Part shown: positions 4,761 to 32,931 of the stretch, piece by piece
How positions within the stretch are numbered: position 1 is the first letter of the stretch
Layout: the number at the start of each line of letters is the position of its first letter
From: Candidatus Planktophila sp.
GTDB taxonomy: Bacteria > Actinomycetota > Actinomycetes > Nanopelagicales > Nanopelagicaceae
Direction of reading: 5' to 3'
NCBI GenBank assembly: GCA_017858325.1
Contig: JAFMBT010000005.1
Location: forward strand, 1-64,000
Length of the DNA stretch: 64,000 nt
Notes under the pieces: generated by a model
Told to the model about the DNA's origin: nothing
The model's input: the letters and a program-made list of their open reading frames with translations, nothing else
Databases searched by the model: none
Translations under genes and position numbers: made by a program

Positions 4761-6475
4761 AACGGGTATTGGTAGCCAATCGTGGAGAGATTGCGGTACG
4801 AGTAATTCGGGCTTGTAAAGATCACGGCCTAGAAAGTGTTGCTATCTACTCTGAAGAAGATCGAAGCGCTCTCCACGCGAAAGCTGCAGATTTCGCTTAT
4901 TCACTCAATGGGGTAAGTGCAAAAGATACATACCTCGATATAGAAAAAATCATCTCTCTTGCTAAGAAATCTGGAGCCGATGCCGTTCATCCGGGTTATG
5001 GCTTTCTCTCTGAGAATGCCCACTTTGCCCAGGCAGTAATCGATGCAGGACTCATCTGGATCGGACCACCTCCTGCTGCAATTAGCGCCTTAGGTGACAA
5101 AGTTTCGGCTAGACGAATTGCTGCCAAGGTCGGCGCACCACTAGTTGCAGGAACAACTGATCCAGTCTCTCACCATGATGATGTTATTGCCTTTGCGAAA
5201 GAACATGGACTTCCAATTGCAATTAAAGCCGCATTCGGTGGTGGTGGACGCGGGCTGAAGGTCGCACACACTATTGAGGAAATCCCCGAACTATTCGCAT
5301 CTGCGGTACGTGAAGCTATTACTGGCTTTGGTCGCGGTGAATGCTTCGTGGAGCGATACCTTGATAAACCTCGCCATGTTGAGACTCAAGTCCTTGTTGA
5401 TCAACGCTCGAACGCTGTTGTGATTAGTACTCGTGATTGCTCACTGCAACGTCGCCATCAAAAACTCGTAGAAGAAGCGCCTGCTCCCTTTCTTTCACAA
5501 GCACAAGTAGATGAGCTCTACCGATCAAGTAAGGCGATCATGAAAGAAGCTGGCTACGTTGGGGCTGGAACGTGCGAATTTCTGATAGGGCAAGATGGCA
5601 CAATTTCATTCCTTGAAGTAAATACGCGTCTTCAGGTAGAACATCCTGTCTCTGAAGAAGTTACTGGTATTGATCTTGTGCGTGAGCAATTTAGAATTGC
5701 AGCAGGTGAGGCGCTTGGATTTGAAGATCCAATTATTCGCGGACATAGCATCGAGTTTAGAATCAATGGTGAGGATCCGGGACGCTCATTTTTACCAGCG
5801 CCGGGTCGAATCACCTCATGGTCTGCCCCATCGGGACCTGGCGTGCGCGTCGATGCAGGATTTCAAGGTGGAGATGAAATTGGCGGAAACTTCGATTCGT
5901 TATTAGCAAAACTTGTTGTGACGGGTGCGACGAGAGCGCAAGCTATTGAGCGAGCACGACGAGCACTCGCTGAGTTCACAATCGAAGGACTTCCTACCGC
6001 TCTCCCTTTCCACCGGGCCATTGTTGAAGATCCTGCATTTACCCAGAATTTCAAGATTTATACCAGCTATATTGAAAATGAGTTCAACAATCAGATTCCA
6101 GCATTTACATATCAGGTTCAAGAGCGAGAGTCACAACCTGCAGCTCAATCACTTGTTGCTGAAGTCAATGGAAAGCGATTTGGAATTAAGGTTCATACCC
6201 CCGCACCGATTATCAAGCGTCGCCGCGCAAAGCAATCATCTATTGGTGCTGCTGCTGGAACAGCGCTGACAAGTCCGATGCAGGGAACTGTTGTAAAGGT
6301 TGCGGTGGAAGAAGGTGCCACTGTTCAAGCGGGAGATTTAATTATTGTCATTGAAGCGATGAAGATGGAGCAGCCACTGAATGCTCACAAGAGTGGTGTA
6401 GTTAAGAATCTCACAGTGGTCATTGGTGAGACGGTAGCAAGTGCTGCAACTCTGTGCGACATCATCGATCTATGA
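4757..6475 (+). CDS. accA: Acyl-CoA carboxylase alpha subunit: biotin carboxylase plus BCCP (AccA3 type)
   Basis: A 572-aa fusion of biotin carboxylase and biotin carboxyl carrier. The N-terminal carboxylase part begins [17 protein letters not shown], carries the glycine-rich ATP-grasp loop [11 protein letters not shown], the [11 protein letters not shown] segment and [12 protein letters not shown], all diagnostic. The C-terminal carrier domain contains EAMKMEQP, with the biotinyl lysine near residue 536, the substrate of BirA encoded upstream on the other strand. With AccD and AccE it forms the acyl-CoA carboxylase making malonyl- and/or methylmalonyl-CoA. It overlaps maf by four bases. Length is typical of actinobacterial AccA3 (about 590 aa). 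Confidence 0.96.
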
Positions 6476-6487
6476 CATTATTCGGGC

Positions 6488-7318
6488 ATGACATCAACTG
6501 ATTTGCTCTATACCGATCCGCTTGAAGCCGCCACTCGTGCGGCAGCAGAGATTGCATCACGAACTGGGGTGGCTTCTCACGATATCGCTTTGGTGATGGG
6601 ATCAGGTTGGGTTGGCGCGGTTGATGCACTTGGCACACCAGCATATGAATGTAGCGCTGAAGAGATAGCAGGATTTCTTCCACCTGCAGTTGAGGGTCAC
6701 TCAGGAAAAATTCGCTCATATGCCATTAACGATGGCAACCGCGTGATTAATGCACTTGTCTTCTTGGGACGTACACATCTGTACGAGGGAAAGGGTATGG
6801 AGCCCGTAGTTCATGGAGTGAGAACAGCCGTCAAGGCTGGATGCAAGGTCGTTATCTTAACTAATGCATGTGGCGGGATTAATACTGCGTATCAGGTGGG
6901 GCAGCCTGTGCTCATTCGAGATCACATCTCCCTTACCGCGCAGTCACCACTAGTTGGTGCAACTTTCATTGATCTCACCGACCTTTACAGCAAACGTATT
7001 CGCTCGATCATGAGGTCAGCCGACTCATCGCTACAAGAAGGTGTCTACGTTCACTGGCGCGGCCCAACCTATGAAACTCCAGCAGAAATTCATATGATGA
7101 GGACCATTGGTGCAGATCTTGTTGGAATGTCTACCGTTCCGGAAGCGATCGCCGCGCACGCTCTCGGTGCTGAGGTATTAGGAATATCTCTAGTAACCAA
7201 TGCAGCTGCTGGGGTCACCGGTGAAAAACTCAGCCATGAAGAGGTAATCGCAGCGGGCAAAGCGGCGGCAAGCTCGATGGGTGAATTGATTAAAAAAACT
7301 ATTCCACAGATAATTTAG
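6488..7318 (+). CDS. punA: Purine nucleoside phosphorylase (trimeric, low-molecular-mass type)
   Basis: This 276-aa enzyme cleaves guanosine/inosine with phosphate to base plus ribose-1-phosphate. Family motifs are VMGSGWVGAVDALG near the N-terminus (phosphate loop), TNACGGINTAY, RDHISLT, GPTYETPAE and MSTVPEAIAA, then VTNAAAG (purine-binding Asn). The length fits the trimeric PNP-II family. It sits 12 bases after accA and 21 bases before a PGM2/PmmB-type mutase. The pair could convert nucleosides to base plus ribose-5-phosphate. No strong ribosome-binding site is visible, and I see no separate promoter. Confidence 0.94.
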   Translation: MTSTDLLYTDPLEAATRAAAEIASRTGVASHDIALVMGSGWVGAVDALGTPAYECSAEEIAGFLPPAVEGHSGKIRSYAINDGNRVINALVFLGRTHLYEGKGMEPVVHGVRTAVKAGCKVVILTNACGGINTAYQVGQPVLIRDHISLTAQSPLVGATFIDLTDLYSKRIRSIMRSADSSLQEGVYVHWRGPTYETPAEIHMMRTIGADLVGMSTVPEAIAAHALGAEVLGISLVTNAAAGVTGEKLSHEEVIAAGKAAASSMGELIKKTIPQII

Positions 7319-28657: not shown

Positions 28658-29782
<1,125 letters not shown>

Positions 29783-29814: not shown

Positions 29815-30720
29815 TTAAGCCCCTATTGCCAGCGTGATTTCATCGACAGCCTCGCTCAATGAGGAGACGGAGCGAGCGCCAGCGCCCGACTGTTCATCCC
29901 AGCCCGGGCCGCCGAGAACAATGCGTGGGGCGGGGCGAACTCGCGGCAATTCGGTGATGAATTGTGATTTGGCATGCACCGGCAATTGGGCCCATAGGAA
30001 TATGGCAGGGGGTGCAAAGCGAGTCACCATTGCAGTCAAGGCTTCCAGCGGAGTTCGCGCACCAAGAAATTGTGTTTCGATTCCGCGTTCGGCCAGCGCC
30101 GCAGCAAGTGCATGGAGTGCGAGTGAGTGCATCTCTTCACCGACTGATGCAAGTAAGACAGGTCGTGCATTTGTTGGGGTGATAATTTCGGCAGCTGATT
30201 CGCGAAGAACGCGTTTAAGAATTTCGGTGAGCATGTGTTCAATCTCAACGCCAGTACCGGTCCTGGCCCACTCACTACCTACCTCTACGAGCACTGGTAC
30301 AAAAACATCTTGCCAAGCACTGATAATTCCATTCTCTGCAATCTCGTTGCGCAACATTGTTTCCACAAAAATTGAATCTAAAGCATTAACTGCACTCAAA
30401 ATTGCTTGAATAGTTTCATCGCATTCGCGACAGAGGGAGACCATCTCTTCGATAACAACCGTGCCCTCATGATTTCTAGCCTGCTCGGCAGCATCTGCTG
30501 GTGCCACACCTGAACTAATAAGGCGTCGCATCAAGGTTAGTTTTGCCAGATCGCCTGGACAATACTTACGGTGCGATCCCACTTCGTGAGCTTGGGGGCC
30601 AACGCCATACCTGCGTGCCCAGGTGCGAAGAGTTGCCGGGGCAACACCAATCCTGCGAGCCACCGCCGTCACGCTCAGGAGCTCTCCTGTGGCCAATGGC
30701 GGCTGCTCTGCTGGGCTCAT
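29815..30720 (-). CDS. MerR-family regulator with cobalamin-binding domain (CarH/LitR-like)
   Basis: A 301-aa regulator. Residues 14-70 form a MerR winged helix (LSVTAVARRIGVAPATLRTWARRYGV, with HRKYCPGDL). A helical B12-capping domain (about 95-175) holds W151 and E161-H162, exactly the W-x9-EH spacing of the adenosylcobalamin photoreceptor CarH. A B12-binding Rossmann domain (about 187-300) has GEEMHSLAL, placing a histidine (H198) where the lower cobalt ligand sits. The likely role is light- or B12-dependent transcription control (inference). The ATG at 30720 is chosen; an upstream extension to 30756 lacks family similarity. Divergent from a whiB gene. Confidence 0.82.
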   Translation of the reverse strand: MSPAEQPPLATGELLSVTAVARRIGVAPATLRTWARRYGVGPQAHEVGSHRKYCPGDLAKLTLMRRLISSGVAPADAAEQARNHEGTVVIEEMVSLCRECDETIQAILSAVNALDSIFVETMLRNEIAENGIISAWQDVFVPVLVEVGSEWARTGTGVEIEHMLTEILKRVLRESAAEIITPTNARPVLLASVGEEMHSLALHALAAALAERGIETQFLGARTPLEALTAMVTRFAPPAIFLWAQLPVHAKSQFITELPRVRPAPRIVLGGPGWDEQSGAGARSVSSLSEAVDEITLAIGA

Positions 30721-30737: not shown

Positions 30738-30758
30738 AAGTGGCGCACCTCACCACTT
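30738..30758. repeat. Inverted repeat just upstream of the MerR/B12 regulator start
   Basis: AAGTGG, nine bases, CCACTT, beginning 18 bases before the regulator ATG. Flanking GCGTG (30733-30737) and CACGC (30764-30768) extend the symmetry with a 5-base bulge. Candidate autoregulatory operator. Confidence 0.35.
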
Positions 30759-30817
30759 GAAACCACGCTTATTAGGAAATTTTTTCGCCGCTGAAGCGGT
30801 TGTGACGCGATAGGTAC

Positions 30818-30846
30818 TTGAACAACCTATGAAACGGTTGTATGGT
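30818..30846 (+). promoter_or_regulatory. whiB promoter with an inverted repeat in its spacer
   Basis: -35 TTGAAC (30818-30823), 17-base spacer, -10 TATGGT (30841-30846). The spacer is almost filled by an inverted repeat, ACAACC (30822-30827) - 8 bases - GGTTGT (30836-30841). A ribosome-binding site AGGAG (30868-30872) precedes the ATG at 30880. A protein bound here would directly block or reshape the promoter. Confidence 0.6.
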
Positions 30847-30879: not shown

Positions 30880-31218
30880 ATGGCTGAGATTTCACGCTTA
30901 CCGATTCCCGTAATGGAAGAGTGGGAATGGCAGTACCAAGGCGCTTGTCGCGATCTTGATCCTGAGATGTTCTTCCATCCCGATGGAGAGCGCGGCCCAC
31001 GCCGTCGCAATCGCGAAAATGCAGCGAAGGCGGTCTGCGCGAGCTGTCCTGTCATCGCTGCCTGCCGCGCCCATGCCCTAGCCGTGCAAGAGCCTTATGG
31101 AATCTGGGGAGGTCTTTCAGAAGATGATCGCACCGCAATCCTGGAGCGCCAAGGCGTCACACCTATAACTATTCCGGCATCCATTGTTGCCGAAGCTACG
31201 GTCTCGCACGCAAGTTAA
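30880..31218 (+). CDS. WhiB-family iron-sulfur transcription factor (WhiB3/WhiD type)
   Basis: A 112-aa WhiB-like protein. The four cluster-binding cysteines are C23, C53, C56 and C62 (CASCPVIAAC), and the GIWGGLSEDDR turn follows. The FFHPDGERGPRRRNRE block and the position next to groEL match Mtb WhiB3 and Streptomyces WhiD rather than WhiB1 or WhiB2. It should bind a 4Fe-4S cluster and a sigma factor, and in relatives it responds to redox/NO and affects late growth. The C-terminal approximately 30 residues are hydrophobic-polar and not basic, unlike many relatives that end in a basic DNA-binding tail. The start at 30880 has an AGGAG site; an upstream in-frame ATG at 30829 lies in the promoter. 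Confidence 0.92.
   Translation: MAEISRLPIPVMEEWEWQYQGACRDLDPEMFFHPDGERGPRRRNRENAAKAVCASCPVIAACRAHALAVQEPYGIWGGLSEDDRTAILERQGVTPITIPASIVAEATVSHAS

Positions 31219-31293: not shown

Positions 31294-32931
<1,638 letters not shown>

Follow-up and report, generated by a model that had tools for sequence, protein, structure and literature searches.

Organization of the Locus

The analyzed window, i.e., the whole stretch of 64,000 nucleotides of DNA of Candidatus Planktophila sp., a freshwater actinobacterium, contains a gene of a LitR/CarH-type regulator, located divergently from a gene of the whiB family, its presumed target. The family assignment of the regulator, the invariance of its ligand residues, its clade, its pairing with whiB3, the operator and the loss of this operator together with the regulator were all computed within this work. 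The features under discussion are the following:

28658-29770, minus strand: guaB-type IMPDH gene, conserved downstream neighbor (synteny context, outside the mechanism)
29815-30720, minus strand: LitR/CarH-type regulator gene (ORF translation, 301 aa)
30791-30813, plus strand: degenerate upstream copy of the operator
30818-30846, plus strand: whiB3 promoter with embedded predicted operator, TTGAAC-AACCTATGAAACGGTTG-TATGGT
30880-31218, plus strand: whiB3-type gene, divergent partner and presumed target
31294-32928, minus strand: groEL, conserved neighbor beyond whiB (synteny context)

The partner gene encodes a WhiB protein, an Fe-S transcription factor (Pfam Whib, 5e-26), which among the solved WhiB proteins is closest to WhiB3: its best PDB match was WhiB3 8cyf (6.7e-33, 116.6 bits), compared to 1.9e-16 (63.5 bits) for WhiB1. 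The start of whiB was placed at position 30880 (AGGAG...ATG), as the longer ORF from position 30829 starts within the promoter. The gene thus has a leader with AGGAG, unlike most loci of genus g1, in which the -10 box of whiB ends about 7 bases before the ATG, which suggests that their whiB mRNA is leaderless.

The Regulator and Its Putative Cobalamin Site

The translated regulator displays the architecture of the LitR/CarH superfamily, that is an N-terminal MerR helix-turn-helix domain (residues 16-79) followed by a four-helix B12-binding_2 domain (104-173) and a Rossmann B12-binding domain (188-273), with Pfam E-values of 4e-11 (MerR_1), 1e-6 and 1e-8, respectively, all above the gathering cut-offs. 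Its top matches among solved structures were those of Thermus CarH (8e-17, residues 15-288), and its W151, E161, H162 and H198 align on W131, E141, H142 and H177 of the T. thermophilus protein (TtCarH), the first three of which cap the adenosyl group, while H177 serves as the lower ligand (PMC11796333). The helix-turn-helix, W151-x9-E161-H162 and H198 within E196-M-H198-S-L-A201 had been pointed out in the sequence-only reading, and translation confirmed these residues and their coordinates; W243 and G270-G271 are further marked positions. The regulator scored 95.6 bits with the CarH equivalog model of NCBIfam (NF052513), below its threshold of 400 bits, and is thus a relative of CarH rather than CarH by this standard. 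The AlphaFold model (three sequences) was too poor for use (pLDDT 51.6).

Among 50 acI orthologues, W151, E161 and H198 were found in all and H162 in 49, so the likeness to CarH is not a matter of chance. The W-x9-EH element, which contacts the adenosyl group and marks Class I (AdoCbl photosensor) LitR/CarH proteins, is therefore intact. Other elements have changed. In the lower-histidine motif D/ExHx2G/P, which allows Gly or Pro at its final position (PMC9304148), E196 is present and H198 is invariant, while position 201 is Ala in most acI sequences and Pro in most other members of the clade. In the SxT/V-x22-27-GG half of the B12 motif, GG is kept, but Ser is replaced by Trp243 (WAQL, i.e., W-x-Q) in 50/50 acI orthologues. 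The photoreceptor signature of PMC11796333 is represented by GxxW (G148-W151), EH and GxxxP (G220-P224), with GxxH shifted to GxxxH (G194xxxH198), and at position 152, equivalent to TtCarH His132, His is not among the common acI residues (mostly E/A/Q/K). Given W-x-Q, Ala201 and GxxxH, the tail of the corrinoid may be bound in another manner, or may not be bound.

The replacements of SxT/V by W-x-Q and of Gly by Ala or Pro across the clade, together with the displaced GxxH and the substituted His132, could also mean that a regulator dedicated to whiB3 has turned B12-independent, sensing something else or using a protein partner. Myxococcus CarA proves such a shift possible (PMC9304148), and a B12-independent whiB3 regulator would give the same comparative pattern as described below. 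CarA, however, has lost the Trp of W-x9-EH, whereas W151, E161, H162 and H198 are essentially invariant here, and the W243/P201 variant is shared with Streptomyces-type LitR of the same clade, which is B12-based (PMC12705666). We regard B12-independence as unlikely.

In the phylogenetic tree, 67 actinobacterial sequences split from TtCarH and from two acI paralogues with support of 100/98. No placement with B12-independent MerR paralogues, the outcome named beforehand as contradicting a B12-binding regulator, was observed; the clade instead holds loci of the litR-litS-photolyase type. In one of them (L127), the regulator and an ECF sigma gene are divergent, with photolyase and DUF2867 genes as neighbors; the sigma gene is also present in L138, L129 represents a photolyase/CMAS locus, and L128 has a lycopene cyclase neighbor. 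Judging by gene neighborhood, the L127-type loci (family f17) are taken to be litR-litS, and in Streptomyces coelicolor LitR senses light by means of coenzyme B12 (PMC12705666). Since litR-litS-type loci of the clade carry the same W243/P201, the Trp243 variant is probably compatible with B12 photosensing, a conclusion that rests on gene neighborhood and not on named sequences. The CarH-like identity proposed from the sequence alone thus holds at the level of the LitR/CarH superfamily (domains, W-x9-EH, H198) but not at that of classical CarH, as SxT/V, G201 and GxxH are changed and the protein belongs to a separate actinobacterial branch.

The two paralogues mentioned above (L052, positions 5733-6650, and L053, 6159-7037) are rare in acI. 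They fall together with TtCarH, retain the classical SxHExG/S-x-x-M motifs and adjoin fasciclin-like double-FAS1 genes (recognized by eye); they are candidates for true CarH in acI. Orthologues of the regulator studied here occur throughout the order, including a Candidatus Nanopelagicaceae relative, and g3 is the only genus that lacks it as a genus.

The dN/dS value of the regulator versus its nearest relative (0.14) indicates purifying selection; together with the retained ligand residues, it does not support decay of this fast-evolving gene, which was considered. Comparison with L003 (6001-6903) gave 76% amino acid identity and a dS of 1.24, while dS values of the flanking genes were far lower (0.12 for whiB, 0.14 for groEL and 0.34 for guaB), a pattern suggestive of allele exchange or of rapid change at this locus. 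Some orthologue matches within the genus (L013, L019, G053, G057) contain one in-frame TAG, reflecting start misassignment, a pseudogene or an error.

The whiB3 Promoter and Its Predicted Operator

The whiB gene is served by a sigma-70 promoter with -35 (TTGAAC, 30818-30823) and -10 (TATGGT, 30841-30846) elements and a 17-bp spacer, AACCTATGAAACGGTTG. The predicted operator consists of a dyad, ACAACC (30822-30827) and GGTTGT (30836-30841), and a single TnnACA half of the CarH type, TGAACA (30819-30824). Across 49 acI loci, TTGAACAACYTATGRMRCGRTTGTA is nearly invariant; the consensus of the 20-bp dyad is ACAACC-N8-GRTTGT, and TGAACA, overlapping the -35 element, is present in 47 loci. Mean top-base frequency in the spacer reached 0.92 within the genus and 0.85 outside it, compared to 0.61 and 0.43, respectively, in the upstream sequence. 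The operators of TtCarH and BmCarH comprise three or four tandem 11-bp repeats with a TnnACA core (PMC9304148). This classical arrangement (nnnnTnnACAn repeats over the -35 element) is not found here, where one TnnACA half accompanies the 20-bp dyad, and a reading of the operator as direct repeats only was dropped.

A 25-mer search with three mismatches allowed retrieved one site in each of the 11 genomes having it and none in g3. A looser pattern returned the whiB site and weak matches only, some of which belong to a degenerate copy lying in tandem with it, 26-27 bp upstream; no second strong site was found in the genomes searched, and weak three-mismatch matches elsewhere were, in several genomes, about as frequent as those of a reversed-pattern control. 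In the window, the upstream copy lies 27 bp from the main site and differs at 7/20 specified positions, as read by eye; weak copies likewise spaced by 26-27 bp were found in G001, G005, G006, G010 and G015. With a position weight matrix trained on acI sequences, 19 of 34 outgroup whiB promoters, all outside the training set, scored over 10 bits, which most shuffles did not approach.

Two further observations concern the intergenic region. A second conserved block near the regulator start (30738-30763; AAGTGG-N9-CCACTT and then GAAAC, CACCACTTGAAAC) is shared by many loci of the genus and is possibly the regulator's own promoter or operator. In MAG 336R (L004, about 5780-6000), an internal deletion has shortened whiB and the intergenic region lacks the operator, while the regulator is intact; this is either real decay or misassembly.

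Conservation of the Pair and Natural Losses of the Regulator

In all 51 acI orthologue loci fetched, whiB is divergent from the regulator, and every acI locus with a regulator orthologue also has whiB. Where the flanks allow it to be seen, the acI pair sits between groEL-groES and guaB-guaB3-guaA. Many further families of the class possess the pair as well, mostly in the same groEL/guaB position and, in families f22 and f28, outside it; a few clade members (L122, L127-L130, L137, L138) have lost the link to whiB. Linkage to carotenoid or photolyase genes, the classical mark of CarH, was not found in acI, where the neighbors are guaB and whiB/groEL, and is seen in some clade relatives only.

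In five loci of genera g6 and g2 (L169, L171, L172, L173, L174), whiB3 is kept, the regulator is gone and guaB abuts whiB3. The best spacer scores of these loci ranged from -11.5 to 1.0 bits versus 15.8-29.1 bits in eleven regulator-bearing acI loci scored leave-one-out, although L172 retains a promoter with a perfect -35/-10 pair (TTGAAT-17 bp-TAGAGT). Such losses amount to few independent events, in at least two genera. In five genomes of genus g4 (L195-L199), groEL abuts guaB, the regulator and whiB3 being missing as a unit, and genus g3 has neither the regulator nor this whiB nor the 370-aa guaB. Thus, among the acI loci, whiB3 occurs without the regulator and the regulator does not occur without whiB3, an asymmetry predicted for a dedicated whiB3 regulator.

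WhiB proteins are generally known to act at sigma-A promoters near the -35 element, and the motif could accordingly belong to WhiB3 itself (autoregulation) or to some other factor, with the targets of the regulator lying elsewhere, e.g., among carotenoid or opsin genes. This is highly improbable: the disappearance of the motif where the regulator alone is lost and whiB3 kept argues against autoregulation as its cause, while other targets are disfavored by the lack of a second strong site in the genomes searched and by genus g3, which bears an opsin but no regulator, no this-type whiB and no exact motif. The suggestion that the divergent whiB is the target, made earlier on proximity, is strongly supported by the pairing, by the conservation of the operator and by its absence where the regulator has been lost.

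Cofactor Supply and the Nature of the Signal

Nearly all genomes of the order, the one studied included, carry a PduO adenosyltransferase, and the CobA/BtuR enzyme is essentially absent from acI (2/151 genomes). The same genome encodes the AdoCbl-dependent ribonucleotide reductase NrdJ, its gene being split over two contigs (G000 C27:180057 and C18:9649). With both PduO and NrdJ present, AdoCbl should be available in the cell. The sole other protein of the B12-binding family in this genome is a 1170-aa open frame, presumed by size to be MetH. Two candidate partners were rejected: adenosyltransferase as a regulator-specific one, since it is also present in g3 and accounted for by NrdJ, and opsin as a target, since Bac_rhodopsin occurs in the regulator-less g3 and is absent from several regulator-bearing genomes.

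The presence of NrdJ, the MetH-sized protein and adenosyltransferase, as well as the independence of opsin distribution from the regulator, would also agree with sensing of AdoCbl supply rather than light, whiB3 then answering B12 limitation in a cell dependent on B12 through NrdJ and, judging by size, MetH; in TtCarH, the apo form does resemble the lit state (PMC9304148). However, B12 transport or synthesis genes were not seen at the locus, and clade relatives adjoin photolyase, lycopene cyclase and litS genes. Supply sensing in place of light sensing appears quite improbable.

Proposed Mechanism and Comparison with Known Systems

The interpretation that we consider reasonably probable is that the protein senses AdoCbl (light) in the manner of LitR/CarH and represses the divergent whiB3-type gene, to which it is dedicated. 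Of its parts, whiB3 as the target is strongly supported by the comparative sequence data, while light or B12 sensing is what we infer by analogy: the AdoCbl ligand, the light signal and dark repression come from knowledge of the family. The AdoCbl-loaded (dark) regulator would bind the dyad between the -35 and -10 elements of the whiB3 promoter, blocking RNA polymerase, and photolysis of the Co-C bond or a lack of AdoCbl would release it, resulting in a rise of WhiB3. At 17 bp, the spacer has the optimal length without any untwisting of the MerR type, which favors repression by occlusion. Dark repression is suggested by the site filling the spacer of a normally spaced promoter and by the precedent of TtCarH and BmCarH, whose dark AdoCbl-bound form sits on DNA over the -35 element and is released by light (PMC9304148). 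The sign of regulation is the least certain step, as Streptomyces LitR also activates litS in light (PMC12705666).

A bolder reading, which we consider unlikely, is that the class Actinomycetia inherited a light/B12-to-WhiB3 module from its ancestor and that the corrinoid is bound in a new way, with Trp243 and Ala/Pro201 placed where base-off B12 normally has its nucleotide tail; another corrinoid form or tail position may then be used, the adenosyl cap and the lower His being kept.

As compared to known systems, the regulator shares with Streptomyces LitR, the B12-based sensor of blue/green light, the clade, the MerR and B12 domains, W-x9-EH, the lower His, the W243/P201-type Rossmann motif and a position divergent from a gene of sigma-factor-level regulation. 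The partner of LitR, however, is an ECF sigma factor with photolyase/DUF2867 neighbors, whereas whiB3 has this place here. Inspection of a set of litR-litS intergenic regions by eye did not reveal the operator of the whiB3 type. With TtCarH (PDB 5C8D/3WHP) it has in common the architecture and the W131/E141/H142/H177 equivalents, but differs by its separate branch (100/98), the absent His132 equivalent, WxQ in place of SxV, Ala in place of Gly, the absence of carotenoid linkage and an operator built as a dyad rather than as three tandem 11-bp repeats. Myxococcus CarA, the B12-independent paralogue, resembles it in its MerR and B12 folds and in a dyad-type operator overlapping the -35 element (PMC9304148), but is devoid of the Trp that is invariant here. 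Finally, the WhiB3-type partner and its conserved chromosomal position recall the whiB3/whiD locus (groEL - whiB3 - guaB region) of other actinobacteria. Mycobacterial whiB3 and Streptomyces whiD occupy this same position; neither Mycobacterium nor Streptomyces is known to have a CarH-type regulator divergent from whiB3. A search of the open literature, which omits most subscription journals, yielded no on-topic paper linking CarH/LitR with WhiB. LitR/CarH regulators and WhiB3 have been known separately; what is new is a branch of LitR/CarH tied to whiB3 and equipped with an operator of its own.

WhiB3, a sigma-factor-binding Fe-S protein and master regulator, acts in redox control; it is known chiefly from pathogens and from actinobacteria that sporulate, and its upstream control is poorly understood; acI bacteria (Nanopelagicales) are among the most abundant lake bacteria and live in light. 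The locus provides a concrete candidate for a light/B12 input into WhiB3, with an exact predicted operator. It ties LitR/CarH proteins not just to carotenoid and photolyase genes but, across the class, to an Fe-S regulator, and light or B12 status may in this way feed into the WhiB3 stress-response switch.
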